Shown piece after piece: positions 20,513 to 57,612 of a stretch of 64,000 nt of DNA. Source of the stretch: an uncultured Eubacteriales bacterium (GTDB taxonomy: Bacteria > Bacillota > Clostridia > TANB77 > UBA1234); assembly GCA_949283575.1 (NCBI GenBank), contig CASDSU010000031.1, forward strand, positions 1-64,000. Direction: 5' to 3'. The notes under the pieces are model-generated. The model saw only the letters and a list, made by a program, of their open reading frames with translations, had not been told where the DNA came from and did no database searches. Every line of letters begins with the position of its first letter. The first letter of the stretch is position 1. The translations under genes were made by a program, and so were the position numbers.

Positions 20513-20517
20513 ATGAG

Positions 20518-22984: not shown

Positions 22985-22993
22985 AACAAAAAG

Positions 22994-23023
22994 ACCGCAT
23001 ATCTTACGATATGCGGTTTTTTG
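22994..23023 (+). terminator. Rho-independent terminator
   Basis: ACCGCATATC (22994-23003) pairs with GATATGCGGT (23008-23017) around TTAC, followed by TTTTT. Confidence 0.9.
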
Positions 23024-23052
23024 AAAATATTATGGTATAATTTTAAATAGAG

Positions 23053-23367: not shown

Positions 23368-24705
23368 TGGCAGTTTATAATCCAAAATCTTTGAAAGCAG
23401 AAGAGTTTATAAATAATGAAGAAATTTTAGAAACTCTTGAGTATGCTGAAAAAATAAAAATAATGTTAAGTTGATAGATGAAATTTTAGAAAAAGCTAGA
23501 CCTAAGAAAACTGATAAAGGTTTCAGATGCGAAGGTCTTTCTCATAGAGAAGCTTCAATCCTGCTTGCATGTGAAATTCCTGAGAAGATAGAAAAAATTT
23601 ATAAAATAGTAGAAGAAATAAAGCTTGCTTTTTATGGCAATAGAATTGTTATGTTTGCGCCACTTTATTTGTCAAATTATTGTGTGAATGGTTGTGTGTA
23701 CTGTCCATATCATTTGAAAAATAAACATATTGCGAGAAAGAAACTTACGCAGGAAGAAGTAAAAAATGAAGTTATTGCGCTTCAAGACATGGGGCATAAA
23801 CGTTTAGCAATTGAGGCTGGTGAAGATCCTGTTAATAATATCGTCTTTTAAAAGAAGCTGGAATTGGTACGTATATTTTGTTTCAAGAAACTTACCATAA
23901 ACAAAGTTATTTGGAGCTTCATCCAACTGGTCCAAAGCATGATTATGATTATCATACTGAAGCGATGGATAGAGCGATGGAAGGGGGAATTGATGATGTA
24001 GGTCTTGGGGTCCTTTTTGGTCTTGAAATGTATAAATATGAATTTGCTGGGCTTTTGATGCATGCTGAACATTTGGAAGCTGTGCATGGAGTAGGCCCTC
24101 ATACGATTAGCGTTCCAAGAATAAAACATGCTGATGACATTGATCCTACTGCATTTGATAATTCTATTTCTGATGAGATATTTGCTAAAATCACAGCGTG
24201 CATTCGTTTAGCAGTTCCTTACACAGGAATGATTATTTCAACAAGAGAATCTGAAGAGGTTAGAGGAAAACTTTTGCACCTTGGAATTTCGCAGTAAGTG
24301 GTGCATCGCGTACTTCGGTTGGTGGTTACACAGAGAAAGAACGTCCGCACGACACTGAACAATTTGATGTATCAGATCAAAGAACTTTGGATGAGGGTTG
24401 TACGTTGGCTTATGGAAAATAATCATATTCCTTCATTTTGCACGGCGTGCTATCGTGAGGGAAGAACGGGTGATAGATTTATGAGTCTTTGCAAAAGTGG
24501 ACAAATAATAAATTGTTGTCATCCAAATGCATTAATGACACTTGCAGAATATTTGGTGGGTTATGCTTCAGATGAAACAAAGAAAATTGGTTTTGAACTT
24601 ATAGAAAAAGAGCTTCAAAAAATTACAAATGAAAAAGTTAAATCGATTGCTACGCAAAATATTGAAGATATCAAATCTTCAAATCGTAGAGATTTTCGTT
24701 TTTAA
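23367..24705 (+). pseudogene. hydG: hydG pseudogene (tyrosine lyase for H-cluster), several lesions
   Basis: The gene starts ATGGCAGTTTATAATCC at 23367. Four lesions are seen. One: a base lost in an A run near 23455, after which KLIDEILEKARPKK is in a new frame. Two: about 45 codons deleted after EAGEDPVNN (near 23845). Three: a base lost after LLHLGISQ at 24298. Four: an extra G near 24395 in the TLDE-VVRWLME junction. Intact signatures between them include the radical-SAM cluster in NYCVNGCVYCPYH, then ILFQETYHKQSYLELHPTGP, GLGVLFGLEMYKYEF and the C-terminal cluster region PSFCTACYREGRTGDRF. HydG makes CO and cyanide from tyrosine for the FeFe-hydrogenase active site. It cannot function here. 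Confidence 0.9.
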
Positions 24706-24717
24706 GGAGTGAGGGTG

Positions 24718-25902
24718 ATGGGATTAAATAATACGGTATCTGCTGAAAGGATTCATATTGGAATCTTCGGCTCAAGAAATGCTGGGAAATCTAGTATTAT
24801 AAATGCAATAACAAATCAAAATATTGCGATAGTTTCAGATACGCCAGGAACAACTACAGATTCAGTGAAAAAGACAATGGAACTTTTGCCGCTTGGACCA
24901 GTTGTAATAATTGATACACCTGGAATTGACGATACGGGTGAGCTTGGAAAAATGCGTGTAAAAAAAGCTAAGCAAGTGTTAAATTATGCAGATATTGCGA
25001 TATTAGTTGTTGATGCAACTATTGGCATAGATGATAATGATACGATGCTTGTGGATTTGTTTAATAAAAAGAATATACCATATTTGATTGTGTATAATAA
25101 ATCGGATTTGCTTGATGAGGTGCCTAATGGTACAAACGAAGCTATTTATGTGAGTGCTAAAACAAAAGAAAATATTGAACTACTAAAAGAAAGAATTGCA
25201 AACATTAGTGTGAAAAATGAAAATAAAAAAATTTTGTCAGACATTGTTTCAAAAGGGGATACAGTAGTGCTTGTAATTCCGATAGATAGTTCGGCACCTA
25301 AGGGAAGAATTATATTGCCACAACAGCAAACATTCCGTGAACTTCTGGAAGTGGGAGCAACAATTATAATTTCAAGTGATGATAATTTAAAAGAAACATT
25401 AGACAAACTTGTAGTAAAACCAAAACTTATAATCACTGATTCTCAAGTGTTTGGAAAGGTTAATAAAATTGTGCCAGAAGATGTTATGCTTACGTCATTT
25501 TCGATATTGTTTGCAAGATATAAAGGAAATTTAGAAACGCTTGTTGGAGGTGCAAATGCAATAGAAAAATTAAAAGACGGCGATACGATATTAATATCAG
25601 AAGGCTGCACGCATCATAGACAATGCGAAGATATAGGAAGTGTAAAAATTCCAAAATGGATTAAAGAATATACAAATAAAGATGTTAAATTTTAATTCAC
25701 ATCAGGTACAGAATTTCCAGAAGATGTCTCAAAATACGTATTAATAATTCATTGTGGAAGATGCATGTTAAATGCGCGAGAAATGCATTACCGCCTAGAA
25801 CATGCAAAAGATTCGGGAATACCAATAACTAACTATGGAATTGCAATTGCACATTTGCATGGAATTTTAAAAAGAAGTTTAGAACCATTCAAAGAATTCT
25901 AA
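24718..25902 (+). pseudogene. hydF: hydF (H-cluster scaffold GTPase) with premature stop
   Basis: ATG 24718 is eight bases after AAGGAG. GTPase motifs are GSRNAGKSSIINA (P-loop), DTPG twice and NKSD. The dimerisation part and the start of the cluster domain (SEGCTHHRQCEDIGSVKIPK) follow. At 25693-25695 a TAA replaces the Glu or similar residue in VKF-FTSGTEFPED. The same frame then continues to 25902 with SKYVLIIHCGRCMLNAREM, the Cys-x-x-Cys cluster ligands, and the normal family end ILKRSLEPFKEF. The truncated product would lack part of the iron-sulfur site. Together with hydE and hydG, the whole maturation operon is inactivated. Confidence 0.9.
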
Positions 25903-35919: not shown

Positions 35920-36077
35920 AAATTTAAGTCACCTCTTATACTATAAAAGTCAAAAACAAATTTGACTTTTATATAATATTTGCGAAATCAAAGGAAAATA
36001 TTCTTAAGGCACATATTTTTAGTCTGGATTTTGTGTAAAGATGACATTATAATTAAATTGTGAAATGGGAGGAAAAT

Positions 36078-36585
36078 ATGGATAAAAATACAATTTTAAA
36101 AGATGAAAAAAACTCAAATTTTATAAAACAATATTCATCATATCTAAAATACAAAGAAAAAGGTATAAATAATGATTTGATTAGTTTTTATTATCAATTC
36201 AATCATTTGAAAAACATATACAGACAAGGATGGTTAAAAGGATTATTAGATATAAGTAAGTTTGTAGATGTTGAAAGTATAGCTGATCATACATGGAGCG
36301 TTGCAATGCTAGCAATGAGCTTAATAGAAAAGTATAAACTTGATTATGATATTGCGAAGTGTATGAAACTAGCGCTTGTGCACGAACTTGGAGAAATTTA
36401 TACGGGTGATTTTACGCCTAGAGATAATATTACAAAAGAAAGAAAACATGAACTTGAAAGAGAATCTATAGAATATGACGTCAAGTATAGACAATCTAAC
36501 TTTGCCATATTTAAAAGAAATTGTGGATGAACTAAAAGATATAGCCCAAGGTAACGAAATAACATATTGTTTAAAAAATGAATAA
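36078..36585 (+). pseudogene. HD-domain (YfbR-like) nucleotidase, frameshifted
   Basis: ATG 36078 follows GGGAGG. The HD-fold signatures are ESIADHTWSVAMLAMSL (first His) and MKLALVHELGEIYTGDF (HE), like the 5'-deoxynucleotidase YfbR/HD-hydrolase family. After RKHELERESIE, near 36470, the frame shifts: the listed frame ends at 36530, while a neighbouring frame carries NLTLPYLKEIVDELKDIAQG and ends at 36585. The region in between is shorter than in family members and the last metal ligand region seems lost. Cluster with an ITPase and a Nudix gene directly downstream suggests a role in clearing unwanted nucleotides. Confidence 0.65.
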
Positions 36586-37138: not shown

Positions 37139-37708
37139 TTGGAAGAATTAATTGATGTTCTAGATTGTGATGGTAATAAAACCGGAGAAATAAAGCCTAG
37201 ATCTGAAATAAAAAAAGCGGGTAATTATCACCGAGCTATAGCTGTATGTATTGTAAATGATAAAAAAGAAGTATTGATGCAAAGAAGAAGTAAAAATAAA
37301 AAAGTATATGCAAATTTATGGAGCATTTTCGTAAAAGGGCACGTAATGTCTGGTGAAACCTCAGAAGAAGCATGTATACGAGAAATCTCAGAAGAACTAG
37401 GTATATCAATAGATAAGTGTGAGCTTAAGTATTTGTATACAATAAAAGAAGAATTAATAATAAGTGAAGATTACATAGAAAGAATATTTTTTGATGCTTT
37501 TATTGTACATAAAAACATTGATATAAAAGATGTAAAAGTTCAAGAAGAGGAAGTTGAAGAGGTAAAACTAATGTTTTATAAAGAGATTGAAGAACTTGTT
37601 TTAAATAGTAACTGTATGGTTCCTAACAAAAATGATTATGAAAAAATGTTTAAAATAATTGAATTTCGGAGATTCATATTAAAAGCAAAAAATGTCATTA
37701 ATTGTTGA
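37139..37708 (+). CDS. Nudix hydrolase
   Basis: TTG 37139, seven bases after GGAGG, gives MEELIDVLDCDGNKTGEIKP, the usual start of IDI-like Nudix proteins; the ORF could extend upstream but not with a ribosome site. The Nudix box is complete: GHVMSGETSEEACIREISEELGI spans it, with the REISEEL core at about residues 86-92. The protein of 189 residues resembles the isopentenyl-diphosphate isomerase-like Nudix group whose real substrates vary. Coupled to the DUF84 gene upstream. Confidence 0.88.
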   Translation: MEELIDVLDCDGNKTGEIKPRSEIKKAGNYHRAIAVCIVNDKKEVLMQRRSKNKKVYANLWSIFVKGHVMSGETSEEACIREISEELGISIDKCELKYLYTIKEELIISEDYIERIFFDAFIVHKNIDIKDVKVQEEEVEEVKLMFYKEIEELVLNSNCMVPNKNDYEKMFKIIEFRRFILKAKNVINC

Positions 37709-37733
37709 AAAGAAAAATATAAATGTATATAAT
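37705..37733 (+). promoter_or_regulatory. Promoter of VWA gene (copy 1 of duplicated promoter)
   Basis: TTGAAA (37705-37710), spacer 17, then TATAAT (37728-37733). The same layout and similar spacer occur at 40413-40441 before the second VWA gene. Confidence 0.7.
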
Positions 37734-37806
37734 TTTATAAAGGTATTTTGTTGTTTGAACGGAAACGAATTATTTTATAAATAGTTCATAAGGGGGATAT
37801 ATACTA

Positions 37807-40344
37807 ATGAAAAAGAAAAGTTTTTTTATAATTTCAATACTGTTAATGTTTATGCTATTTACAGTTTCATATGCTGCAGAAGAAGAAACGATAAAAAAGA
37901 TTGTAAGCATTGTTTATGACGATTCGGGTAGTATGATATCATTTAATAATTATTGTTATTCAGACTATGCTCTTCAAATTCTTACTGCATCATTGGGAAA
38001 AGATGATGAATTAAATATTGTAAAAATGTCAGATTATTATAGAAATAATGAAATTGGTTTAACTAATCAAAAGGAGAGACAAAAATATATTGATGAAATT
38101 AGAGGATATTCACACGTTGGTGGAACTCCTTTTGACTCTGTTAATACTGCTAAAAATTGGCTGATTAGAAAAAGTGAAACATATAAAGAAGAGGCAGATT
38201 ATTGGCTTGTTGTAATAACAGATGGTGCTTTTTTTGATTTGCCTATGGATATAGATAATTATCTACAAGATTTAAATAATTCATTTAATAATCTAAATTA
38301 TGAATTTGTTTTACTTAGTATAGGAACGAGTTATGATACAACATTACAAGATGCAGTTGAGGTTAGCACCAATAGCACTAATGTTACTGCTCAAGATAAA
38401 CAAAGCGTTTATGAATCAATATTAGAAATTTCTAATATGATAAATAATGGAGCTAGTGATAAGATAGCTAAAGCGGAACAAATTGGTGAAAAGACAGTAA
38501 GAATAAATTCAAAATATCCGCTTAGAAAAATGATGTTGTTATTACAAAATACAGATAATCGTGTTGTTAGTATTACAAGAAGTGGATCAAAATTGGATGC
38601 GGAAACATATGATGTTTCATATCCGTTAGAAGATTTAAAAGGTTCGCTTACTCATGTCGTAGATCCAAAAGAAGAATATTTAAATTCTGGTTACTATGAA
38701 GTTTCGTTCGCAAAAGAAATTGATATGAATAAACTTACTGTTTTATGTGAAGCGTACGTAGAGTGTAAAATAAGTATTGTTGATGAAAATGATCGTGTTC
38801 TTAATGATGCTCAAATGAATTTCTTAACACCAAGTAAAATTGTAAGAGTAAAATGTGAATTGTATAATGCTGTTGATGGAAAACCTTTAGAATATAATGA
38901 TGAAACTGCGAATGTAAAGATAGAATTAATAAATGAAAAAAATAAATATCCACTTACATTTGATAAAAGTAAAAATGCATATTATGGCAGTTTAACATTA
39001 CTTGAAGAAAAGAATAACATATATGCAATTGCAGAATCAGAAGATTTGTTTAGGATAAAATCTAATGTTATTTTTGTTGATACACTAAATGCTTCGGCTA
39101 ACATTGAAAAAAATGAAAATGATATGTTAAAAATTGAAGTTCCATATTCATCTGATAAAGAATATAAACAAGTACACCAATTTATTTTTAGTTTTGTTGA
39201 AAATATGGATTATAATGTTGCTCAAGATTTTGAATTACAACTTCTTAATGTTCCTGATGGTATTGAGTTTGAATATGATGGTAAAAGGTATGGTAATAAT
39301 GATAAAATTCCAATGATAAAAGAATTTGGAAAAAATTATATCTTAAATATTTATTCAAATAAAGATTACAAAGAAAAAGAAGAAAAAAGAGTAACGTTGA
39401 AGATTTTGACAGATGAATATAATCAAACGATTTACTGGACGTCAAATGGTGTTGATGAAGAATTCTTATTGATTGTTCCAAAATTATATCCAATACAATT
39501 AATAAAGAAAAACATAGGAAATGAAATTGATGTTCAAGAAGAAACGTTAGAATTTAAAATTGCAAGAACAGCAGACGAGAGCAATATTTTAAGTATAGTG
39601 AATTACATAAATATTGAGGACATAAAAAGTCTTAAAGATAACAGTACAATGACTTCTGGCTTTCCATATACTGTAGAACAAGATGAAGAAGACAATATCT
39701 TAAGATTGAAATTTAAACCGAATATATTTGCGCTATTAAAAGGCAATACAGTTGAAGTAGAAATAGAAGTTGAACTTAATAATAGTTTGGAAAAAACAAC
39801 TTATAGCGAAGAATTTACTTTGACTAATATTGATGTGATTGGTATATTAACTCCATACATAATACTTGCAATAATATTGATATTGTTAATGGGATATGTG
39901 TTCAAAAAGAAATTTAATAAAAAATCACAAATTACAATAACAGAAAACGGCGAGAGTATTTCTTATGCATTAAAACCAAACTTGGTTACAGTTTTAGTTC
40001 CATATATGGCGCATAAAACAAAAATAGGTATGATTGAGTTTAAAGCTGGAAAAAATAGTGAACTTATATATTCGGCTAAAAACTTAGATATTTTAAAAAT
40101 AGATGGAGAACCTCTAGAAGAATATAAAGAAAGTCATAAAGTAAATATTCAAAAAATGATAATGAAGAAAGATTTTTCAAGTATTAATATTAATGCGTTT
40201 GATGTTGAACAAAAGTATGAATATTTAACAAAAGAAGTTGATATGGCAAGTGGTGATGACAGTTATCTTGATGACTATTCAGATAATTATTCAAGTGATA
40301 GTGATTATACAGCTGGTGGAGATATGGATGATTATCAATTTTAA
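37807..40344 (+). CDS. Secreted, membrane-anchored VWA-domain protein
   Basis: ATG 37807 is behind AAGGGGGAT. The 845-residue protein has a signal peptide (FFIISILLMFMLFTVSYAA). A VWA domain spans about 30-210 with a complete MIDAS: VYDDSGSMIS, a Thr in HVGGTPFDS and the Asp in VVITDGAFF. A long beta-rich ectodomain includes a module VPDGIEFEYDGKRYGNNDKI. A membrane helix lies near 675-700 (ILTPYIILAIILILLMGYVF), followed by a cytosolic domain of about 120 residues and a very acidic tail (DDYSDNYSSDSDY). It probably binds a ligand outside through a metal ion and contacts cytosolic partners inside. It begins the VWA/tubulin gene group, though a terminator separates it from the next gene. Confidence 0.85.
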   Translation: MKKKSFFIISILLMFMLFTVSYAAEEETIKKIVSIVYDDSGSMISFNNYCYSDYALQILTASLGKDDELNIVKMSDYYRNNEIGLTNQKERQKYIDEIRGYSHVGGTPFDSVNTAKNWLIRKSETYKEEADYWLVVITDGAFFDLPMDIDNYLQDLNNSFNNLNYEFVLLSIGTSYDTTLQDAVEVSTNSTNVTAQDKQSVYESILEISNMINNGASDKIAKAEQIGEKTVRINSKYPLRKMMLLLQNTDNRVVSITRSGSKLDAETYDVSYPLEDLKGSLTHVVDPKEEYLNSGYYEVSFAKEIDMNKLTVLCEAYVECKISIVDENDRVLNDAQMNFLTPSKIVRVKCELYNAVDGKPLEYNDETANVKIELINEKNKYPLTFDKSKNAYYGSLTLLEEKNNIYAIAESEDLFRIKSNVIFVDTLNASANIEKNENDMLKIEVPYSSDKEYKQVHQFIFSFVENMDYNVAQDFELQLLNVPDGIEFEYDGKRYGNNDKIPMIKEFGKNYILNIYSNKDYKEKEEKRVTLKILTDEYNQTIYWTSNGVDEEFLLIVPKLYPIQLIKKNIGNEIDVQEETLEFKIARTADESNILSIVNYINIEDIKSLKDNSTMTSGFPYTVEQDEEDNILRLKFKPNIFALLKGNTVEVEIEVELNNSLEKTTYSEEFTLTNIDVIGILTPYIILAIILILLMGYVFKKKFNKKSQITITENGESISYALKPNLVTVLVPYMAHKTKIGMIEFKAGKNSELIYSAKNLDILKIDGEPLEEYKESHKVNIQKMIMKKDFSSININAFDVEQKYEYLTKEVDMASGDDSYLDDYSDNYSSDSDYTAGGDMDDYQF

Positions 40345-40360
40345 AAATTAGATAAACAAA

Positions 40361-40391
40361 AATGGCGGAGTGAAAACTTCGCTATTTTTTT
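40361..40391 (+). terminator. Terminator after first VWA gene
   Basis: AATGGCGGAGT (40361-40371) pairs with ACTTCGCTATT (40376-40386) with G-T pairs, followed by TTTTT. Confidence 0.7.
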
Positions 40392-40412
40392 GTCTAAAGA
40401 AGAAATAAAATG

Positions 40413-40441
40413 TTGAAAAAAGAATTGTAAAAGTATATAAT
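40413..40441 (+). promoter_or_regulatory. Promoter of second VWA gene and tubulin operon (copy 2)
   Basis: TTGAAA (40413-40418), spacer 17, then TATAAT (40436-40441). The leader ends in the same TACTAATGAAAAAGAAA text as copy 1. Confidence 0.7.
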
Positions 40442-40516
40442 TTTCTTGTGTTATAATATCGGTAGACCCGTAAAAAAGAATTATGTTTGAATAATTCATG
40501 GGGAGGAATTGTACTA

Positions 40517-43500
40517 ATGAAAAAGAAATGTTGCTTTATGTTTCTGGTACTGATAATATGCATGACTTTTGGTGTTGTATATGGAGCGGAAAATGAAATT
40601 ACACGAAAAGTAGTAAGTGTTGTTTATGACGATTTTTATTCAGTGAAGAAAGAGAGTAATAAAGAAAATTCGAATTACATACTTCAAATGATTACGTCGT
40701 TACTAGAAAGTGATGATAAGTTGAGTGTTGTAAAAATGTCAGAAGTTTATAAAAGTTTTGAGGTTGACTTGGAGAATCAAGAAAGAAAACAAACTTTTAT
40801 TGATGAAGTGAAAGATTATCAAAGTGTTATTAATACTCAATTTGAAGGAATGAATACGGCGAGAGAATGGCTGGTTAATGAAGCGTCTTATAATGAAGAT
40901 ACTGCAAAATATTGGTTAGTTGTAATTGCAAATGGAAGCTTTAAAGACAAATCAAAAGAATTAGAAAAATACTTAAAGGATATCGAATTTGATTTTAGAG
41001 ATTTTGAATTTGATATTTTATTTTTAGATCTAAGTAACCTTCAAGACACGGCGATAAAGGATGCAGTTGAAAATTCTAAAAATTCAAAATATATGACCAT
41101 AAATACTGAACAAAATACATATGATTCTTTTTTTGAAATAGCTAAATTGTTTAATATTAATGTTAATAATCAGTTGGTTTATATAAACAAAGAGAATGAT
41201 AGTGTTATAAAAGTGAATGCAAAATATCCTTTGAAAAAATTAAGTATTGTAATACAAGATTGCAATAATGAGGTGAAGTTTGTAACTCATAATAGCAGTG
41301 AAGTGAATTTGGAAAATCATTATATATATTCAACAGATAATTCATTAGTTGGTTCTGTGACAAATGTTATAAATAATGCAGTAAATTATTTAGATGCAGG
41401 TGAGTATGAAATTGAATTTAGAGGAAGTGTTGAGGAAGACAAAATACTGATTTTGCATGAGTCATATTTTAGACCGAAAATTTGTTTTGTTGATGAACGT
41501 GATAATTTGCTAAGTCCAGAAGACCAATGGATACATTTGACTGCTACAGATCGTATAAAAGTAAAATGTGAGTTGTATAGTGCTTTTGATGATAGCAAAC
41601 TTCCTTATTGTGAAGAAAACAAAAACTTTGATGTAGATGTGCTAATTGAAGAAAGAAGATATAGTTTGAAATTTGATGAAAATAAAAATGCATATTATGG
41701 TTATGTACCACTTGAAAATCCGTGGAACATTATGTATGCGTTAGTTGAAAAAGGTGAAAATTTTTCTTTAAAGTCCAACATTTTGGCTGTTAATGTATAT
41801 GCTAGTCCTGAAGAAGTTCCATCGCAAGATGAATTTTTTTTAGATTCTGCTGAAATGATAAAAATGGAAATACCATATTCTAATAGTGAAAAATATATTT
41901 TTAGAAATAAGTTCCTTCCTAAATGTGAGGGAGGAGATGAATATGTTTCTGAAAGTATCTATTACCAAATTCAGAATATTCCAGATGGTGTAATTTTTGA
42001 ATTTGCAGGAAAATGTTATCGAAGTGATGAAAAAATACCTGCTGATTTAAAAAAAGGAAAAATTCATGAAATATCTATATATTCTAATAAAGATTATATA
42101 GAAAGAGATGCACAAGAAATGATAGTGTTTATATCATATGCAAATGGATTATTTTTTCCAATATATTGGGTCAATACTGGTAATGATAATAGAACATGAT
42201 GGGAGAAAATATACCGACAACGAAGATATACCAATAATTGTTGAAAAAGGCAGAATATATACTTTGAAAATTTATGCTAATGATGAATATGTTGAGATGG
42301 ATAAAAAAGCATAATTTTGAAATTAAAAAGTGATGTTTTTGAACAAGAGCTTTCATGGAGTACAACGGGTAATACAGAAGAATCTATAGTGATTGTGCCT
42401 GAAGTATATCCTATAAAAGTAACAGAAATTGAAACTACAGATAAAATATTTTCATCTTATTCTTTTTCTGGTGATGAAAAGAATATTTTTAGGTATACTT
42501 TTATGATAGAGGAAGATAATGCTAAAAACAGTGGCGAAAAATTTGAAATACATCTATTCGATATGCCTGAAGGAATTTCTTTTGAATATGACGGAAAGCG
42601 ATATAAGAATATAGTGAGTATAGAGAGGCTGAAGAAAGAAATGTAATTTTAAAACTACAATCAATTCTTCCTAGCCAAGAAATATCTCTGAATGGGAAAG
42701 GGAATACAGAAAAAGTAATTACTATTTGTCCCCCAAATAACCCAATACATGTATTTAATAAAGGTACAGAGAAAATAGACATTCAGAAAGAATTTTTAGA
42801 ATTAGAAATTGCAAGAGTTGATGATATTCAAAGTTTAAATGTTATTGAAAATGTCAGTTTGAAGAATATAAAGAGTATTGAAGATAATAGTTCATTTTTT
42901 AGTGGATTTACATATAAAATTGAAAAAGACGTGGAAAACGATGTTTTAAAAATTAAATTTAAACCAAATCTATTTTGTTTAGTAAAAGATGATAAGGTAA
43001 ATGTAGAAATTAAAATGGAGTTTGATAACGATTTTGAAACAGCAATGTTTGTTCAAGAAATTGATATTGAAAATATCAATATAATGGTTGTGTTGAAGCC
43101 GTGTATAGTTGCATTTGAAATTTTACTTTTTATAATGGGATACATCGTTAAAAGAAAGTTTGATCCTGATGCTCAGATAGTCGTTACAGAAGATGGAGAT
43201 TGCATGGCATATGGATTAACCCCAAGTTTGATAAGTGTTGTAATACCGTATATGGCTCATAGAGCCAAGGTTGGTGTGGTTGATTTTAAAGCTTCAAAAA
43301 ATAAAGAACTTATATGTTCTACAAATGAGTTTGAAATTTTAAAGGTAAATGATGAACCATTTGTAGAATATAGAAAAAAACAAGGAATAGATAATAAAAA
43401 AATTGTAATGAGAAAAGGTAAATCAAGCTTTGTTATAAAAGCTTATGATAGCATGCAAAGATATTAATACTTAGATAGTGGTAATGAAACGACAGATAAA

Positions 43501-43545
43501 GAATATAAACTTGATGAAATTTATTTGGAAGATGATCAAAATTAA
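40517..43545 (+). pseudogene. Decayed paralogue of the VWA protein
   Basis: ATG 40517 starts MKKKCCFMFLVLIICM (signal peptide). The protein follows its neighbour closely along the whole length. Its MIDAS is already lost: DDSGS is DDFYS, GGTPF is INTQF and TDGAF is ANGSF. The ectodomain module (EFDGKRY type) occurs three times rather than once, for example PDGVIFEFAGKCYRSDEKIP and PEGISFEYDGKRYKN. The frame breaks near 42190, 42310, 42640 and 42830, and a TAA follows MQRY at 43465. In-frame text (YLDSGNETTDKEY) then runs to 43545. The membrane helix and acidic tail are still readable. The 5' half (570 codons) could still be translated as a secreted fragment. Confidence 0.85.
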
Positions 43546-43563
43546 AAAGGAGTGTAATGATTT

Positions 43564-46500
43564 ATGGGAAAAAGTGATGTAACGGCAACATTACTTGTTG
43601 GACTTGGAGGACTTGGAAGTAGTATAGTTAATAGAATTTATGGTGAGGTTAAGAAGAATGGACAAGATAAGAAGGTAGAGGCTGTTATTATTGATACAGA
43701 TATAGGAAGCTTAAATAAAAATACAAATATTGATCCTATATATAGAATTCAAACAAGTGAAAACTCTACAGTAAAAGGGTTGTTAGATAGAGATCCAAGC
43801 TGCAAAGAATGGTTCCCAGAACATCCTGTTATTTTGAATTCACAAATTTTAGAAGGCGCTGGAATGGTAAGAGCCATTTCAAGACTTGCTTTGAAAAATG
43901 CGATAAAAAGCAATAAATTATCCGTTTTGAATCAGATTGGTGATAATCTTTTTGAAGTTGGAAATGAAACGACAACTCGTGGTATAAGGGTAATGATAAT
44001 TTCATCGCTTATGGGTGGAACAGGTTCAGGTATCTTTTTACAAGTTCCATTACTTCTTAGAGATATTTTAGAAAATAAATATGGAACAGATAGAATCGAT
44101 ATAATGGGAACTTTTATACTTCCAGATGTTATATCTAAGGTTATACCAACAGAAAGAAAAACTGATATATATGCAAATGCGTATGCGTCATTTAAAGAAT
44201 TACAAGCCATTATAACATCATTAACAAAAAATGAATTTGGTGTTGATTTAGAATACAAACCAGAGCAAGTTAACTCAGAAGGTATAAGAAATATAACTGT
44301 AGATAGATTACCATACGATTTTTGTTATTTGTATGACAGCAAAAACATGAACAGTGAAGTTTTAAGTACACTTGATGATTATTTAAATTTAATTATTAGA
44401 GATGTATATGCAATGTTATTTGGACCTATTTCAGATGGAATATTCTCTAAGAAAATTAACACGATAAGAGAACTTATAAAGGGACAAGGTCAAAACCTAT
44501 ATAGTGCAATGGGCGATTCTATGTTGGTATATTCATATGAAGATATGGTTAATTATTGTTCGCTTTCATGGATAAGTAATTCTTTATCAGAAAACATGTT
44601 AAAACTTGATAATGAATATAAAAAACTTGATGAAGAATACAGAAAGAATCAAAGAAAAGGTATTGTATCTCCAAAAGTTGAGCGTTCTAAAATTTTCGTT
44701 GATTGCTTTGAAAATTTAGTAAAAGAAGAGAACAATTATTTTAAAGGAATCATGAATAGCATTGTTTACAAAGATCCTGTAAATCCAGCACTTTCATATG
44801 ATAAACCTGTGGACATGCTAAAAGCATTTGATGCAAAAATAATGGAACGTATTGAAACTGATATGGATGTAGCTCCAATACAAGCTGAGATTAAGAAAAA
44901 TATCAACTTCATTGCTAATATGAATGATGTTGGTTCTAATGATGCTTTTGGTGGTCGTGTTAGAATGTGTGAAGACAATATAGTTAAGTTTAAAAATATT
45001 GTTGAAACCGCAGCGAAGTCAAAGTGTGCTATTGATGTAAAAGGTATTGCGGGTCTTATTGATGATTCGCCAAGCGGACTATTATATGATTATATGCACA
45101 ATGGTAACGAATTCATTCATGTACTTGGTGTTAGATATTTGATGTATAAGGTTAAATATCTTGCTGCTAGTACAATGAATAAATTATCTGAAGAGGTAAA
45201 TAGATTTGCAGGAGCTTATGCTAGAGCCGATAAAGGTTTCACAATGAAAGATAAAGGCAATGGTACAGCTTCTCAAAAATTAAATGAAGTACAAAACGAA
45301 AAAGGTTTATTTAATAGAAGAATAAATAATTTCAAAAAAGAATATATAGACAACGCAAATGCTAAAGCTAGTATGATAAGAAAATATTACATATCAAAAC
45401 GTAAATTAGAGTCATATAAAGTTTTAGTAGAAATAATTGATGGAGTTTCAAAAGAGTTTGAAAACTTCTTCGAACATTTGAAAGCATATGAAGATACAAT
45501 AAATATAAGTAAAGAAAAAGAATACAATAAAACAAATAATCAAACTGGAAAAACAGTTATAAATGTTTTAGCAAAAGGTGAAGAAAAAGAAGCTATATAT
45601 AATCAAATAGAAGGACTACTTGACTTTAATTCTTTACAAGCAAAATTAGCAAGTTTCATGTTTGAATCGATATTTAAGAACTATAAAGTTAAACTTAACA
45701 ATGCAAATATAGCAAATAATACTTTTGGAAAAACGTATACAGCAATTGAAGAAGAAATAATGAAAAATTGTCGTCAAGAATTAATCGAAACGGCAAGAGA
45801 TGTTTTAGATATTGATATCGTTGATGCTTTAATTAAAGAAGCTAACTTAAATGGAATTGATTATAAAGAAAATATAGAAAACAAATTAAAACAAATTTGT
45901 AGACTTGTTTCTCCATGGATCATAACGAATGATAATGTAAAAACACATGATGATATTATATTTGCAATGAATCCAAAAACATATGAAAAATTACCAGATA
46001 AGGGTATTATATCTACACTTCTTAAAGATAAAGGTAATGTTTCTGCAGAACAAAATTCAGAAGTTAGTGAAAAAGAAATTTCTCTTGTAATGCTTAAATA
46101 TGGTATGAAAATAACTGATATTAAAGGATTTTCAAGTACGGCAAGTTATGCAGATCAAGGAGAAATGTTTAAAGCATATAATGAAGTAATAAAACAAATC
46201 CAAGATTCACATGCAAGTACAATTTTAAATAGGGTTGTTACACCGCATATTGATAAGCGTTGGCATGTAATGCTTCCATCAATTGATCAAGAATATGAAA
46301 GCATCAAACAAATAGAACAGTCAAAAGCTTACCTTGCAGGACTTGCACTTGGAATGTTTAAAATTAGAATGAAAACTGATGGAACAAATAACAAGACATT
46401 CTTATTCTATTCACCAAAAAATACAATACCAGCAAAGGTAACTATTGGTGGTATTCATGGTATGAAAGAAATAACAGATTCATATTGGGAACTATTAGAT

Positions 46501-46944
46501 GCAGTAAAATATAATCCACAAATGAGCAGAACAATAATGGATAAATATAATGAAGAGTTAGAAGCAAGTAATAATACTATGGGAATAAATGTACAAAATA
46601 TAGTTGATCTTCCAATAATCGCGAGCTTGTGTGATATTTATAGAGATTCAAATGATAACATGAGTGTTATAGATGCAATGATTTCAGCTTATTCAGTGGT
46701 TCCTGCTACCGAAAAACAAAGTACGGTTACTTTGAAAAAGATAACGGAACTTATAAAAGCTTTAGAAAATATTATTGAAGAAAATGTTAAAATCTTTGCA
46801 CTTAGCGAGATTCAAAAAGATGAAATGTTTAACAAAGTATTAAATCATTTATTATCAAAGAGTAGACTTGTAGAGAATTTGTCAGAAGATACAATCGAAA
46901 ATGTTTATATTGTGGAACCAATTAAAAATTTAATTAGAGGATAA
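43564..46944 (+). CDS. Large tubulin/FtsZ-like GTPase (Tubulin_2 type)
   Basis: ATG 43564 is behind AAAGGAGTG. The N-terminal GTPase domain has VTATLLVGLGGLGSSIVNRI (nucleotide-binding first loop), then VEAVIIDTD. The tubulin signature loop is SSLMGGTGSGIFLQVP (residues about 150-165), a variant of GGGTG(S/T)G. The remaining 700 residues are mostly helical with coiled-coil stretches and no membrane segment. At 1126 residues it is far longer than FtsZ (about 380) and fits the FtsZ-like/Tubulin_2 proteins predicted to shape membranes. It is cytosolic and may form filaments. It is followed after five bases by a membrane protein and lies behind VWA genes, so it is probably the motor or scaffold of an envelope machine. 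Confidence 0.85.
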   Translation: MGKSDVTATLLVGLGGLGSSIVNRIYGEVKKNGQDKKVEAVIIDTDIGSLNKNTNIDPIYRIQTSENSTVKGLLDRDPSCKEWFPEHPVILNSQILEGAGMVRAISRLALKNAIKSNKLSVLNQIGDNLFEVGNETTTRGIRVMIISSLMGGTGSGIFLQVPLLLRDILENKYGTDRIDIMGTFILPDVISKVIPTERKTDIYANAYASFKELQAIITSLTKNEFGVDLEYKPEQVNSEGIRNITVDRLPYDFCYLYDSKNMNSEVLSTLDDYLNLIIRDVYAMLFGPISDGIFSKKINTIRELIKGQGQNLYSAMGDSMLVYSYEDMVNYCSLSWISNSLSENMLKLDNEYKKLDEEYRKNQRKGIVSPKVERSKIFVDCFENLVKEENNYFKGIMNSIVYKDPVNPALSYDKPVDMLKAFDAKIMERIETDMDVAPIQAEIKKNINFIANMNDVGSNDAFGGRVRMCEDNIVKFKNIVETAAKSKCAIDVKGIAGLIDDSPSGLLYDYMHNGNEFIHVLGVRYLMYKVKYLAASTMNKLSEEVNRFAGAYARADKGFTMKDKGNGTASQKLNEVQNEKGLFNRRINNFKKEYIDNANAKASMIRKYYISKRKLESYKVLVEIIDGVSKEFENFFEHLKAYEDTINISKEKEYNKTNNQTGKTVINVLAKGEEKEAIYNQIEGLLDFNSLQAKLASFMFESIFKNYKVKLNNANIANNTFGKTYTAIEEEIMKNCRQELIETARDVLDIDIVDALIKEANLNGIDYKENIENKLKQICRLVSPWIITNDNVKTHDDIIFAMNPKTYEKLPDKGIISTLLKDKGNVSAEQNSEVSEKEISLVMLKYGMKITDIKGFSSTASYADQGEMFKAYNEVIKQIQDSHASTILNRVVTPHIDKRWHVMLPSIDQEYESIKQIEQSKAYLAGLALGMFKIRMKTDGTNNKTFLFYSPKNTIPAKVTIGGIHGMKEITDSYWELLDAVKYNPQMSRTIMDKYNEELEASNNTMGINVQNIVDLPIIASLCDIYRDSNDNMSVIDAMISAYSVVPATEKQSTVTLKKITELIKALENIIEENVKIFALSEIQKDEMFNKVLNHLLSKSRLVENLSEDTIENVYIVEPIKNLIRG

Positions 46945-46949
46945 TAAAT

Positions 46950-48974
46950 ATGATTAAGTTATGTATAGACAATACGTCTTCACTTCATGAATTTCACATG
47001 TATGAACCATATTTATATGGTGTTATGAAAAAGAAAAATTGTTTTTTGATAAATGATTTTTCGAAAAACAATAGTGATATCGAAAATTTCGATATCACTA
47101 TTCGTGATGCTGAAAGTATATTATTAGAGCACAAAGGAACAGATTATGAAGTTACAATTATTGCAGAATTGCTAGAAGTTGACAAACCTTTGGTTCAAAA
47201 ATTATACGAAATAGATAAATACATAACAAGTAAATTTACAAAAAGTCAAATTCAAAAAACTAAAAATATTACGATCATTCTTCTGGATTACACAGGTAAT
47301 AGTTATATAGATTTTAAGGAAGAATTGTATGTTGCTGAAGAAGAAAGTGAATTGTTTTTTACTAAAGAAGAATTACTTGCTTGTGAGAAAAAATTAAAAA
47401 ACACCAAAGACGTTGAAAAATTTATAAATGAGCTGATTCGTATAAGAGATACAAAAGTTGTTTGTAGCGAAAATGAGTGGTATTTATATATTTTTTCTAA
47501 AATGTTAAAACATTTTAATGATCCTCATTTACTAGAGTTAAATGGAGATACGCCATTAGATATTATAGATATCTTTAAAAAATTAATGTCTCATTTTGTA
47601 AAAAAAGAGATATTAGATACTAAATTAATTTTAAAGCATGATATGTATTCAGAAAAAAATCTATATTCAAAAGATAGTAAAAGTTTTACTGATATGAATA
47701 AACTTATTGCTTTACTTTCTTTTGATATGGAAGAGTTTTTGACAAAATCAAAATCTATTTTTTATAAAGGTATTTATAATGTACAAATTGGATTAGATGA
47801 AGAAAAAGTAAAGAGAATGATAATGCAATATTCTGAAAATTTAAAAGCGCAGTTAGATATGTTAAATCAAAATAAGCCAAGTAAAATAGAAGTTGCTAGA
47901 AGAGTAATGCCGAACATCTCTTTAAGAAATATTTATTTAGAACCAGTCAAAGTAAAACCAGAAAGATTAACTTTTTTTAGAAGTAGTAGGAATATACAGT
48001 ATTTAGACAGGATTGAAAAAAATCTTACAATATCTATAAACAAAAGAATAAAAAGAGCAAAAAGTCATAACGTTCAAAGTATATGTGATTTACGAACACT
48101 AAGATATGTTGATGAAAAAACTCTTTCAAAAGAAAAATTATCATTGATAGAAATTCGAGATAGAATAGAAGAAAAAGCGAACGAGTATAAAAGAAAAAAC
48201 AGAGAGGTATTTAATAGCAGAACTGATTATTATGAAATACTAGAAGATTATTTGAATAAGCAAAAAGCTCAAAAAAATGTGATACTAGAAGAACTTAACA
48301 AAAAGTTGAAATTAAAAAATTTTGCGTTTGCAAATATTGTTCTATATGTTATTTTGGGATGTATCATTCTAGCTAGTTGCCCAGAGCTTGTGACAAAGAT
48401 ATCAGAAGTAAAGAATCTTTTATTAACGCTTGGATATATTGCTGTAGCTGTCTTTATTACTACTCTTGGAAATTTGATAGTAGATAACATAAAAATAAAT
48501 AAAAAGATTGATGAATATGTGAAATTTGTTAATGGGTATAATTCAAGATTGCAAATAAATAGCAATGAAGAAATAAAAAAATTATCGGCTACATATGAAC
48601 TAATAATTTTAAATAGCGATATAGAGTATTATAAAAAACAATATGATAAATTATTAAATTTAATAAGCAAATATGAATTTCATATTTCTCAGCTTGAAAA
48701 ACATATAAACATAGCTAAGAGATTATGCTTAAGAGTAGGTGTTAAATTTTTTGATATTGTAGTAGCAAATGATACTAAATTTGATGAAAAAAATGTTGAG
48801 GTTGATATCAACAAAGATGTTTATGAAAATGATTGTTATTCAGTAATGCATTTTCTATTTGAAACAAAAGATTATTGTATGATGCTTAATAGTGGTGAAG
48901 TGATAGAAAAAGTTGGGTTAGAAACATATATAAAGAGTATAAACTTTACAGAGGATGAGGTGTATAGATTCTAA
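46950..48974 (+). CDS. Unknown membrane/coiled-coil protein of tubulin operon (674 aa)
   Basis: ATG 46950 starts five bases after the tubulin-like gene; no strong ribosome site, so translational coupling is likely. The first 440 residues are soluble and charged, and a long coiled coil lies before and after the membrane part. Two adjacent membrane helices near 455-505 (FANIVLYVILGCIILAS and LTLGYIAVAVFITTLGNLI) form a hairpin with both ends in the cytosol. The last 150 residues are again soluble, ending in YKSI-like beta strands. Its stop overlaps the next start (TAATG). I recognise no family. The layout suggests a membrane adaptor for the tubulin-like protein. Confidence 0.75.
   Translation: MIKLCIDNTSSLHEFHMYEPYLYGVMKKKNCFLINDFSKNNSDIENFDITIRDAESILLEHKGTDYEVTIIAELLEVDKPLVQKLYEIDKYITSKFTKSQIQKTKNITIILLDYTGNSYIDFKEELYVAEEESELFFTKEELLACEKKLKNTKDVEKFINELIRIRDTKVVCSENEWYLYIFSKMLKHFNDPHLLELNGDTPLDIIDIFKKLMSHFVKKEILDTKLILKHDMYSEKNLYSKDSKSFTDMNKLIALLSFDMEEFLTKSKSIFYKGIYNVQIGLDEEKVKRMIMQYSENLKAQLDMLNQNKPSKIEVARRVMPNISLRNIYLEPVKVKPERLTFFRSSRNIQYLDRIEKNLTISINKRIKRAKSHNVQSICDLRTLRYVDEKTLSKEKLSLIEIRDRIEEKANEYKRKNREVFNSRTDYYEILEDYLNKQKAQKNVILEELNKKLKLKNFAFANIVLYVILGCIILASCPELVTKISEVKNLLLTLGYIAVAVFITTLGNLIVDNIKINKKIDEYVKFVNGYNSRLQINSNEEIKKLSATYELIILNSDIEYYKKQYDKLLNLISKYEFHISQLEKHINIAKRLCLRVGVKFFDIVVANDTKFDEKNVEVDINKDVYENDCYSVMHFLFETKDYCMMLNSGEVIEKVGLETYIKSINFTEDEVYRF
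47070..47102. repeat. Perfect 33-base palindrome inside a coding region
   Basis: AATAGTGATATCGAAA (47070-47085) and TTTCGATATCACTATT (47087-47102) are perfect inverted copies around one base. It lies in codons 41-51 of the 674-residue membrane protein gene, 120 bases after its start. Confidence 0.8.
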
Positions 48975-51964
48975 TGGATATAGAAGCTTTTTTAGGAAAT
49001 TATATAACTGTATATTACTTTTTATTGCTTTTCTGCGTTGGAATCTCTGCGTCATTGAATCAACCTAAAGAAAAGCGTATTAATCAGACAAAATTAACAA
49101 AATTTTATATAATATATATTGTTTTATCGACAGTGATTTTGTACGCTTGGTTTTCGTTTGCAGATGTGTTACCTATAAGCTACCAAAATTCGGTGTGGCT
49201 TACATTAGCTGTAAAGTTATCAGAATGGTTTGCAGAAAAATATGCTAAATTCACACTTTGGGTAATAGGTATTGGAATTGTTGTTAAATTAATATCTAAA
49301 GTTGGTAAAACTATTATGAGTAGCACTTCAACGTATACGCCATCATATTCATACAAATCAAAAAGTAATACAGAATCGAAGCCAATAAAAAGAAATTTTC
49401 TTATAAAATTATTTTATAAGGAAACTGAAAGTGTAAATGAGCTTGGTGTTTTAGTTGGCAAGATATCGAGAATTATAGCTCTTGCTCTTATGATAGTTTA
49501 TATTAGTTTACCAATTTTTGAATATTTTGATATATATATGTTGTTTTCAAAAGTAGGTTTGCTATTATTTATAGTTACGTTTTGGGAACTATATTATTCA
49601 TTGCAATATAAGCAAAAAGAAGAGAAAAAAGATATAAGACATTTGAAAATAAAAGAACCTAATATATTACAAGCAGCTTTAAAACAGTTACTGAAGTTAA
49701 GTGAAATTGAAATTTTAGAGGAAAAAACTTTAGGAAGAAAAGATATAACTTCAAGTGGACCTGCAGCATTAATTTGTGAAGTTCCTAACTTAAATGAGTT
49801 AAAAGAACTTAATTTGAAAGTTATGAATGGAGCTTTTTTTGAAAATAAAAAAGTATTGGTTATTTGTTTAAATGATAAAACAGCAACTGAATATCATAAA
49901 AAACTTACAGCTTTCAACAGAGAATATGATGGTAAATTAGTGATAAAGCTTATAACTAGTGATGATAAACTTTTTGATAGTTCGGTTGATATTTATGTGA
50001 CTGCAATAGAGAATTGCTTTGGAAATATAAAATTATTAAGTGAAATAGATGCAATTGTTATAGAAGACTATGACGAAATTCTGCTTAATAAATTAGAACT
50101 ATTGAGGGCATTAGGTAGTATTGTAAAAATGGGAAATCCAGAAATGAATTACATCATTTTAACTTATATGTTACATGGAATTGAAGCGACAATCAAAAGT
50201 TTATTATTTGTTACAGATATTTCTTGTTATTGTCCAACTAATAGATACAGTTCTAAGAAAGTATTAATAAATGTTTGGGAAAAAAATGATAATTTTATTA
50301 CCGAAAAAGTCTTTGGAAAAGCTACACAAAATTTAGGTTCATTGGTTCCATTATCGTTATTAAGTGTAAAATGGCAACCTGAAAGAATATTGATGATTTC
50401 GAAAAATGAGCCATTAGACTTTGAACTTAACGAATTAAATGCTATGCGAAATTTGTCAGAAAGAAATGTAGATAATGTAGAATTAAAATTGTTAAGTGAG
50501 AAAGCGAAGATAAGTTCGAAAGAAAGATATTTTAATAATATAAAGAAAAACTGGATTATTACTGATGATAAAAGCAATGTGTATGAAAAAATCTATAAAT
50601 TATCATTAATTAATGGTGTAGAGAATAATTTAAATATTGTTTCTGAGCAATATATGCTTAGAGATTATATGGTAGCGACGTATAATGAAAACAAATCAAG
50701 ATTAAAATCATTTTTGACGTATGTACCATATGAAGTGAATAGTGGTAAAGTTGTTTTATATAATCTTTTGTTGCAACTTACTAACTTTGGTGTCAAAGAA
50801 AGTATAATCGCTAATATATTAAATGAAAATGGTATTCACATTAAAATTGGTAAAGGTAATAATGCAAAGTTAATATCAGATAAGCTAAATAAGTTTATAA
50901 AACAAGAATTTAATATTGATGTAGATTTATATTCGTACATAACAATTCAAGAATTAAAAGAAAAATATGTTTTTGATATGTCGAAAAAACAATATATTGA
51001 AGAAGAGAAGAATTATATTTTAGATGAATTGGCGTTAGAACTATTTCCAAATGAAATATTTAGTAGAGTAAGTTTTGTAAAAGATGGTTTTGAGTTGGAT
51101 ATTGAGAAAGAATATGCATATAATTTTTATCAAAAATATTTGCCTGGTCAAAAACATTATTTAAATGGCTATGTGTATGAAATAAAAAATACGATTGAGA
51201 CGGATGATGGTATAAATGCAGTTGTTGAAGCTAGTACTAATTATGATAATCATACGTATAGACAAGATAGAAAAGTTGAAATAGTAGCTCCTTTTGTTCC
51301 AACAGAAACAAAATTGAATAAATATGCAAATCTTACTTTGAAATATCAAATGGGAAAAATGAATTATCAAATAAGAACAGAAGGGTACTTTGAATTTAAA
51401 AATGGTATTTCAAAAATCCCAGGAGAATATAGATATGTTGGTTTAGATTCAAAAGATATTTTTAAAACAACAAGAAATCATGTAAATGCAGATGCTTTAA
51501 AATTGGAATTTGCGATGAATGAGACTTTGAAAAAAGGTATACCAACTGTAGAAACAGATGAACTTGGAGAGAAAATGGCATTTTTGATTACTGAAATATT
51601 AGTCTCATTACTTGGTGAAAACTCGAAATATATTCAAGTAAAATCAGTGAAAAATTCCACTTCAGACACTCTGTTTGGAGAAACATGGGTAGCACCAATC
51701 GAAATAGCAGGGTATTCAACAGAAAATATTGAAATATACATATTAGAGGATACTCAAATTGAACGTGGACTAATTGACATGATTTATAAAAATTTAGATA
51801 ATATATTAAAGATGATTCATGAATATTTAGCTTGGGTATTTGGGGCTGAACATAATTTGGCTGAAGAAAGAGATAAGTTCTTGAGAAATGTTGATATAGA
51901 CGAAAAGTCATTAATGAAATATAAGAGAATATTTAATATATTGAAAAATGCGATAATGCAATAA
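48974..51964 (+). CDS. Membrane protein with degenerate helicase-like core (996 aa)
   Basis: The start ATG 48974 overlaps the previous stop. Four to five membrane helices lie in the first 215 residues (FLLLFCVGISASL, IIYIVLSTVILYAWFSF, FTLWVIGIGIVVKL, IALALMIVYISLPIF, VGLLLFIVTFWELYY). From about 220 a two-lobed soluble part recalls SF2 helicases. GRKDITSSGPAALICEVPNL stands where Walker A would be but lacks GxGKT. KVLVICLNDKTATEYHKKL and DAIVIEDYDEILLNKLELL (DE box-like) are in order, then MNYIILTYML. The C-terminal 500 residues are of unknown fold. It would be a membrane-anchored, probably ATP-independent relative. The helicase comparison is weak and mine alone. Confidence 0.65.
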   Translation: MDIEAFLGNYITVYYFLLLFCVGISASLNQPKEKRINQTKLTKFYIIYIVLSTVILYAWFSFADVLPISYQNSVWLTLAVKLSEWFAEKYAKFTLWVIGIGIVVKLISKVGKTIMSSTSTYTPSYSYKSKSNTESKPIKRNFLIKLFYKETESVNELGVLVGKISRIIALALMIVYISLPIFEYFDIYMLFSKVGLLLFIVTFWELYYSLQYKQKEEKKDIRHLKIKEPNILQAALKQLLKLSEIEILEEKTLGRKDITSSGPAALICEVPNLNELKELNLKVMNGAFFENKKVLVICLNDKTATEYHKKLTAFNREYDGKLVIKLITSDDKLFDSSVDIYVTAIENCFGNIKLLSEIDAIVIEDYDEILLNKLELLRALGSIVKMGNPEMNYIILTYMLHGIEATIKSLLFVTDISCYCPTNRYSSKKVLINVWEKNDNFITEKVFGKATQNLGSLVPLSLLSVKWQPERILMISKNEPLDFELNELNAMRNLSERNVDNVELKLLSEKAKISSKERYFNNIKKNWIITDDKSNVYEKIYKLSLINGVENNLNIVSEQYMLRDYMVATYNENKSRLKSFLTYVPYEVNSGKVVLYNLLLQLTNFGVKESIIANILNENGIHIKIGKGNNAKLISDKLNKFIKQEFNIDVDLYSYITIQELKEKYVFDMSKKQYIEEEKNYILDELALELFPNEIFSRVSFVKDGFELDIEKEYAYNFYQKYLPGQKHYLNGYVYEIKNTIETDDGINAVVEASTNYDNHTYRQDRKVEIVAPFVPTETKLNKYANLTLKYQMGKMNYQIRTEGYFEFKNGISKIPGEYRYVGLDSKDIFKTTRNHVNADALKLEFAMNETLKKGIPTVETDELGEKMAFLITEILVSLLGENSKYIQVKSVKNSTSDTLFGETWVAPIEIAGYSTENIEIYILEDTQIERGLIDMIYKNLDNILKMIHEYLAWVFGAEHNLAEERDKFLRNVDIDEKSLMKYKRIFNILKNAIMQ

Positions 51965-51987
51965 AAGATATTTTAGGAGGATGAAAT

Positions 51988-52509
51988 TTGGATAATGTTA
52001 TTATGGTTTATACAAAAGAAAATCCTTTTAAATTAGAATTTTTTGAAAAAACGTTCACAACAGAAGTTTTAATTGGTAAGAACGGAGCAACAATAAATAA
52101 GCAGGAAGGCGATGGGAAAACACCGATAGGTGAATTTGAGACAGGAATAGTTTTTGGACTGCATGAAAGAGAAAATGTGAATTTAGATGAATCAGTGCAA
52201 TATGTAAAAATAAATGAAAATTTATACTGGATTGATGACGTGAATTCAAAGTATTATAACCGATTGATAGATGTTACGAAAGTAAATGTTGATTGGAAAA
52301 GTGCAGAGCGTTTGATTGATTATAAAGTTCAATATGAATTTGCATTGGAAGTAAAAACAAATCCTCAAAATATTGCGGGAAAAGGAAGCGCCATATTTAT
52401 TCATTGTAGCGATGGAAATCAAACAGCAGGATGTATAGCTCTTCCAAGAGAAAAAATGATAGAATTATTGTCAAAAATAGACAAAAATACAAAAGTTTGT
52501 ATCGTATGA
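51988..52509 (+). CDS. YkuD-type L,D-transpeptidase domain protein
   Basis: TTG 51988 is seven bases behind TAGGAGG. The 173-residue protein consists of the catalytic domain only: GDGKTPIGEFETG, then the active-site block GSAIFIHCSDGNQTAGCIAL with the His and the nucleophilic Cys (HxnGC). It fits the ErfK/YbiS/YkuD group that links or modifies peptidoglycan with 3-3 bonds. No signal peptide or membrane helix precedes it, which is unusual for an enzyme acting outside. As the last gene of the tubulin/VWA operon it ties the system to the cell wall. A terminator follows. Confidence 0.82.
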   Translation: MDNVIMVYTKENPFKLEFFEKTFTTEVLIGKNGATINKQEGDGKTPIGEFETGIVFGLHERENVNLDESVQYVKINENLYWIDDVNSKYYNRLIDVTKVNVDWKSAERLIDYKVQYEFALEVKTNPQNIAGKGSAIFIHCSDGNQTAGCIALPREKMIELLSKIDKNTKVCIV

Positions 52510-57051: not shown

Positions 57052-57612
57052 ATGGGTTTTATAGAAATCATATTAATTGCAACTGGACTTGCGATGGATG
57101 CTTTTGCAGTAGCTGTTTGTAAGGGGTTGCCAATGAAAAAACTAAAGTTGAAAAATGCAATAAAAATAGGTTTGTATTTTGGTTTTTTTCAAGGTGTAAT
57201 GCCTATTTTAGGATATTATTTAGGTGTATCATTTGAGAAATTGGTTTCACAAATTGATCATTGGATAGCTTTTATTTTACTTGGATTGATTGGTATAAAT
57301 ATGATAAAAGAAGCTTTTTGTAAATGTAAGGGGGAAGCAAATGATAAACTTGATTTAAAAACAATGTTGCCACTTGCTATTGCTACAAGTATAGATGCAT
57401 TAACTATTGGAATAAGCTTTGCATTTTTATGTGTAGATATATGGATTGCTGGTTTACTTATAGGAATAATAACATTTGCACTCTCTGTAATAGGAGTAAA
57501 AATGGGCAATAAATTTGGAGATAAATATGAGAAAAAAGCTGAATTTATAGGTGGTTTGATTTTAATAATAATGGGCATTAAAATATTGCTTGAACATCTA
57601 TCAATAATATAA
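57052..57612 (+). CDS. mntP: MntP-family manganese efflux pump (copy 1)
   Basis: ATG 57052 follows TAGGAG. Six membrane helices make two three-helix repeats; the conserved motif GLAMDAFAVAVCKGLPMKK in helix 1 and its counterpart ATSIDALTIGISFAFL in helix 4 carry the acidic residues that bind Mn. The 186-residue length is typical. It exports Mn2+ to prevent toxicity. A second copy, about half identical by eye, is at 59061-59621. No yybP-ykoY riboswitch is seen in the short upstream region. Confidence 0.92.
   Translation: MGFIEIILIATGLAMDAFAVAVCKGLPMKKLKLKNAIKIGLYFGFFQGVMPILGYYLGVSFEKLVSQIDHWIAFILLGLIGINMIKEAFCKCKGEANDKLDLKTMLPLAIATSIDALTIGISFAFLCVDIWIAGLLIGIITFALSVIGVKMGNKFGDKYEKKAEFIGGLILIIMGIKILLEHLSII

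Follow-up and report, generated by a model that had tools for sequence, protein, structure and literature searches.

Tandem VWA genes in a vWA/FtsZl1 island of a Clostridia genome, the second with a damaged MIDAS site and a broken frame

The window, a 64,000-nucleotide stretch of a gut-type Clostridia genome, carries two adjacent VWA genes, A and B. They are best explained, with a probability of roughly 0.7, by an old tandem duplication after which gene B changed faster than gene A, lost two metal ligands and then the frame of its 3' half, its leader being kept for the operon that follows. The direct support for this reading comes from the homology of the two genes, the topology of the duplication, the rate of change, the lesion pattern, an empty site in a sister genome and a hairpin behind gene A.

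Results

An island that is absent from the sister genome

Both genes lie in an island of about 14.4 kb (37661..52060, forward strand), a vWA/FtsZl1 cassette that the colinear position in a sister genome (G002) lacks. In a blastn comparison with the reverse-complemented G002 C24 stretch, window position 37660 corresponds to position 12794 of that stretch and 52061 to 12947; the sister genome has 153 bp in place of the 14.4 kb island, a clean empty site. The left island junction is the stop codon of a NUDIX gene, and the GC content is 0.27 in the island against 0.30 in its flanks. The island looks mobile, and its clean boundary in the sister species marks it as a unit that comes and goes.

The tubulin-like gene of the cassette was found in 1 of the 385 genomes of the order sample and was absent from the 12 other genomes of the family; no match to PF13809 was detected in the 384 other genomes of the order sample. 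Searches for genes close to A or B came up empty in the 5 other genomes of the genus, the 12 others of the family and the 384 others of the order sample; gene A alone as a query retrieved none from a broader genome-contig collection, and viral contigs gave none either. The family of the host of locus L024, a relative of the cassette, yielded no further VWA gene, only G509 itself among 38 genomes. Either the island was gained with both copies already diverged or it was lost in all sampled relatives; both fit, and gain is simpler.

The cassette belongs to the vWA/FtsZl1 system

By sequence, the surroundings of A and B are recognisable as the known vWA/FtsZl1 (Tubulin_2) system. An intact gene for an FtsZl1/Tubulin_2 protein of 1126 aa (43564..46944, +) starts 17 bp after B and matches PF13809 with an E value of 1.6e-54 (186 bits vs a cut-off of 27, residues 10-340 of 1126); PMC9871819 ties the Tubulin_2 Pfam model to the FtsZl1 family. 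It is followed by a third cassette gene (46950..48974, +, 674 aa), assigned by place and size, and a fourth (48974..51964, +, 996 aa), assigned by homologs in relatives. The third had no family match above cut-off and no sequence homolog in the panel described below (best 80 of 195 matches plus 11 loci); relatives too have a gene of about 650-800 aa at this position. Homologs of the fourth gene occur in at least 64 other loci (at least 65 with the window). An HELTHIWQ-type C-terminal motif, as in zinc peptidases, is found in 41 of the 61 fourth-gene homologs of at least 900 aa (window counted), the window's own gene being without it, and weak Pfam matches to metallopeptidase families occur among the relatives (loci L025, L026, L034 and others).

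In Makarova and Koonin 2010 (PMC2875224), FtsZl1 is a Tubulin_2 protein with an adjacent VWA gene, membrane remodelling is predicted, and the MIDAS is intact in the majority of the system's VWA proteins. The island has in common with the system as given there a long extension past the GTPase domain, an adjoining VWA gene and further genes of unknown kind. It differs in having two VWA genes, of which the one beside the tubulin-like gene is broken in frame and damaged in its MIDAS: gene A, with its intact MIDAS, is present nearby, but the immediate neighbour of the tubulin-like gene is B. The kinase, P-loop GTPase or OmpA genes that accompany other loci were not recognised by Pfam among the cassette proteins of the window. 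A literature search recognised no experiments on the system.

The panel used for comparison comprises 91 other loci, namely the best 80 of 195 tubulin-like matches plus 11 others; it was gathered with the tubulin-like protein as a query, is not exhaustive and includes some contigs twice (L024/L033, L025/L110). In 79 of these 91 loci the gene immediately upstream of the tubulin-like gene encodes a VWA protein, and two full VWA genes occur in none of them. Among the listed loci, only L043 and L045 show more than one VWA piece, and these pieces look like fragments of one gene; the cassette VWA gene is there split over frames (L043 7720-9344, L045 7710-9934), in two actinobacterial genomes of which one is titled a complete genome.

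Gene A encodes an intact surface VWA protein

Gene A (37807..40344, +) is an intact open frame of 845 aa for a surface VWA protein, preceded by a putative promoter, a consensus match of the form TTGAAA-17-TATAAT (37705..37733, +). Its predicted order, from the sequence and a structure model, is a signal peptide, a VWA domain with a full MIDAS (all five ligands are present), beta modules, a TM helix at about residues 677-698 and a cytosolic beta domain. Just 3' of the gene, RNA folding gave a hairpin with a T run (40348..40397, +; -23.1 kcal/mol, z -6.4), a probable intrinsic terminator that a simple terminator scan did not pick up. The VWA proteins of the relatives L024 and L032 have 846 and 848 aa, a length that points to one ectodomain module as the ancestral state.

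The VWA fold of gene A resembles that of the ANTXR1/ANTXR2 ectodomains (PDB 3n2n, 8fz4; target-normalised TM 0.70-0.73), as does that of gene B (3n2n; 0.66). It should be noted that the identity between gene A and these receptors is 13-16%, that gene A is bacterial with another stalk and tail, and that the likeness is one of fold.

The duplication included the promoter

The first-pass annotation had proposed a tandem duplication including the promoter, on the strength of two TTGAAA-17-TATAAT promoters, similar leaders and an identical start, and each of these points held. Gene B has a putative promoter at 40413..40441 (+, consensus match), and in the 6.4 kb scanned only two sites match the consensus at 11 of 12 positions, the promoters of A (37705) and B (40413). 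In the whole window there are exactly two occurrences of the 17-mer TACTAATGAAAAAGAAA, at 37802 and 40512. Over a whole-length alignment, 73 of 101 aligned bases of the two control regions are identical, with a score of 80 vs 22.2 +/- 5.5 (maximum 44) for 500 shuffles, and a 131-base query from the control region of A aligns with B along 130 bases, 73% of them identical (E 1.9e-14). A genome-wide search with the A leader found no full-length match other than the B leader; when the latter was compared with 45 upstream regions in the window, it scored 204 with itself, 78 with that of A and 29 with the next best. In VWA trees of 19 sequences (A, the 5' part of B and 17 hand-chosen relatives), A and the 5' part of B are sisters with support of 0.989, 0.998 and 1.0 for three column sets, and the pair is placed next to L032 and L024.

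The leaders are more alike than the fourfold sites of the two genes (p 0.0014), so they were kept alike by selection or were homogenised, two explanations that the analysis cannot separate. Gene A ends in its terminator, and a simple scan found no terminator-like site between the B promoter and the tubulin-like gene; the B promoter therefore probably drives the tubulin-like operon now, which would explain why the leader is kept as gene B decays.

Gene B has three modules and a broken 3' part

Gene B (40517-43546, +), identified by homology as the tandem paralog of A, consists of two parts. The 5' part (40517..42196, +) is a 560-codon open frame with a signal peptide, a damaged-MIDAS VWA domain, beta domains and module 1. 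The 3' part (42183..43546, +) holds partial modules 2 and 3, a juxtamembrane region, a TM segment and a cytosolic domain. The several frame breaks and the TAA noted at first pass were confirmed as three frame changes, near 42190, 42305 and 42610-42640, and an in-frame TAA at 43465-43467. With frame changes before the TM region and the TAA after it, gene B does not encode a complete membrane-anchored protein.

Gene B is 35% identical to A over A residues 1-551 (E 1e-106) and 39% over a second stretch, residues 518-813 (E 1.3e-69), with module pieces in other frames between. Gene A has a single copy of the module at its residues 442-567 and gene B has three, in agreement with the earlier count. 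Copies 2 and 3 are incomplete: module 2 is without its first part and module 3 without an inner part, both gaps falling at frame changes. Modules 2 and 3 share 18 of 39 residues in their common stretch, vs 15/39 and 16/49 with A; they are slightly nearer to each other than to A, but the internal duplications, too, are old.

All four counted lesions fall within the last 45% of gene B (chance 0.04 if uniform), and the 5' part may therefore still be made; death of the gene is evident only in its 3' half. A purine-rich stretch precedes the start of the 5' part, and the N-terminus is signal-like. AlphaFold2 modelled this part with high confidence as a VWA domain in which strands and helices alternate (mean pLDDT 78.5, 560 residues). 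The input alignment of intact relatives favours such a fold, and the PDB matches of the model include VWA domains.

Two of five metal ligands are lost in gene B

The MIDAS had been described at first pass as replaced across three separate motifs; it is damaged and not replaced as a whole. Gene B loses two of the five coordinating residues (S40F and D139N) and keeps D38, S42 and T107. Its counterpart of DxSxS is DDFYS (40628..40642, +, from the A/B alignment; DDSGS in A), and its INTQF motif still holds the MIDAS Thr; ligand loss in all three motifs was rejected, as only two of the three lose a ligand. The other changes in the MIDAS loops are G41Y, M43V, P108Q and T138A. Judged from these residues, gene B may be metal-independent.

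A ligand departs in 1 of 74 relatives (L040, at one of the five ligands), and gene B departs at two. In L040 (Alteribacter; VWA protein at 7836-9929) DDEES stands in place of DDSGS, the sole ligand change among the 74 relatives. This comparison used 74 of 88 VWA-like rows, gapped positions of incomplete rows being scored as not departing. The 14 rows left out were three from the window, two distant VWA proteins (L028, L029), one duplicate (L033 = L024), five fragments (L043, L045) and three Saprospiraceae rows, dropped because their Thr motif did not align. At a 90% threshold, gene B keeps 4 of 9 invariant residues in the MIDAS loops vs 12 of 13 in the rest of the fold (Fisher p 0.023). The p values at other thresholds are 0.077 (95%), 0.028 (80%), 0.11 (70%) and 0.15 (60%), so that the enrichment of losses in the loops is weak and threshold-dependent, with no significance at three of five thresholds. 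A literature search on MIDAS-degenerate bacterial VWA paralogs found nothing.

Rate, age and order of events

In the VWA tree, the branch of B is about 3.5 times longer than that of A (1.13 vs 0.32), with similar figures for the VWA domain (1.09 vs 0.36) and the middle part (1.15 vs 0.30). Fourfold sites of A and B are identical at 41 of 84 positions (0.49; composition expectation 0.36), below the 594 of 932 (0.64) between this genome and the sister genome (Fisher p 0.009); on this basis the duplication is probably older than the split of the two sister species. Twofold codons agree between A and B no more often than composition predicts, which places synonymous sites near saturation, so the per-domain dN/dS values (nominally 0.4-0.75) are not trustworthy and were not used as proof.

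In simulation, a neutral frame of 560 codons stayed free of stops with a probability of 0.055 when 0.03 substitutions per site were applied and of 0.0025 when 0.05 were; for a frame still open over 560 codons, neutral change thus has an upper limit of about 0.03 substitutions per site. Changes in at least five of nine MIDAS-loop residues had a probability of 0.0015 at 0.05 substitutions per site and were seen in 0 of 4000 runs at 0.02. Together, these odds exclude neutral drift after the complete death of B, and the MIDAS change dates from a time when B was a frame under some constraint or still translated. The first-pass annotation had placed the MIDAS change before the loss of frame; against neutral drift after death this order is upheld (P <=0.0015), and the simulation leaves relaxed drift before the death of gene B as fitting.

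Decay elsewhere in the window

The three genes after B (43564-51964) are wholly open over 8.4 kb. At 22980-25900, the [FeFe]-hydrogenase maturation genes all look broken: hydG lies in several frames with an internal loss (it is whole in the sister G002 and was not found in four other sister genomes), hydF has an in-frame stop, and the remaining tail is presumably hydE, a name given by reading of the sequence and not by a family match. Since the genome is losing genes, true decay of B is likely.

Discussion

In the explanation that we favour, gene A would be the working surface subunit of the vWA/FtsZl1 island, with its MIDAS-VWA domain facing outward, and would presumably link the tubulin-like protein to the wall or to a ligand on the outside, a coupling suggested by the conserved gene order. 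The VWA gene and its promoter would have been duplicated in tandem long ago, probably before the sister species split. Gene B, still an open frame, would then have changed at about 3.5 times the rate of A; it would have acquired two further modules and, with its fold kept, given up two of the five metal ligands, before its 3' half lost the frame. Gene A keeps its own promoter and terminator, and the B promoter is continuous with the tubulin-like gene, so that the broken gene B probably survives as the long leader of the tubulin-like operon. The age of the duplication relative to the species split, the control of the operon by the B promoter and the metal-independence of B are the parts of this explanation that we infer.

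A change of role, for example to a non-binding partner as the first-pass annotation suggested, is possible, and relaxed constraint on a gene still translated fits equally well; relatives with a second copy were absent from the collections searched, so that a functional phase of B is presumed. Plain non-functionalisation, in which B drifted under relaxed constraint, losing MIDAS residues no differently from the rest, and took on no new role until its frame broke, falls somewhat short of an even chance. The spread of the rate excess over both the VWA and middle domains, an enrichment at the MIDAS that fails at three of five thresholds and the decay of further genes in the window speak for it; 560 stop-free codons despite great divergence, a sign of long constraint on the frame, the 12 of 13 invariant residues kept outside the MIDAS and the extra modules, which are added structure, speak against it. 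Gene B might also be alive: its 5' part would still yield a VWA fragment of about 560 aa, secreted and soluble, which has a damaged metal site, lacks a TM segment and acts beside or against A, decay being confined to the 3' part. This has in its favour the clustering of lesions in the last 45%, a promoter, purine-rich stretch and signal-like N-terminus, and a model with VWA and beta domains that finds VWA matches in the PDB. We regard it as doubtful, because the model leans on an alignment of intact relatives, soluble secretion departs from a membrane-anchored family and a clustering of so few lesions is weak. A more elaborate and unlikely variant has a two-VWA system in an unsampled donor, made of a metal-binding subunit and a three-module partner with a crippled site, the latter cut down here to a secreted 5' fragment that maybe modulates A, its promoter kept for the operon.

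Two further alternatives concern the data and the origin of the pair. Errors in the assembly of a draft, probably metagenome-derived genome in 38 contigs, with other broken genes such as hydG on the same contig, could in principle have produced the frame breaks of B. This is improbable, since the breaks include lost module stretches and not single slips only, the next three genes are wholly open, and hydG is whole in one sister and was not found in the other four, as expected of a gene truly being lost. The protein identity of only 35% could suggest that A and B are of separate origin, with no duplication at all; the sister placement (support 0.99-1.0) and the homologous leaders make this barely credible.

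Under the favoured explanation, gene B is a credible, if modest, example of a gene that was duplicated, changed and then died. The vWA/FtsZl1 system has been known since 2010 and is little studied, and a doubled VWA gene with one decayed copy is what differs here. The role of the metal site could be tested on a natural pair of VWA proteins of which only one has the full site.

Additional observations

PADLOC-DB models matched none of seven window proteins at E 0.1 and none of eight proteins of relatives at E 0.01, and a defence-island reading is therefore not claimed. In the Alteribacter locus L040, the cassette is followed directly by a Csm6-like HEPN gene (19404-20900), which hints at a defence setting there. 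Elsewhere in the window, a 5'-deoxynucleotidase-type HD-domain gene (36060-36530) has an end unlike its family, perhaps from a deletion fusion, and a fragment of a LysR-type regulator (19370-19807, -) has an internal loss. Two similar small membrane proteins, two genes apart (57052-57612 and 59061-59621), look like a local duplication, and a c-di-AMP riboswitch (RF00379, 94.6 bits) lies at 63854-63979.
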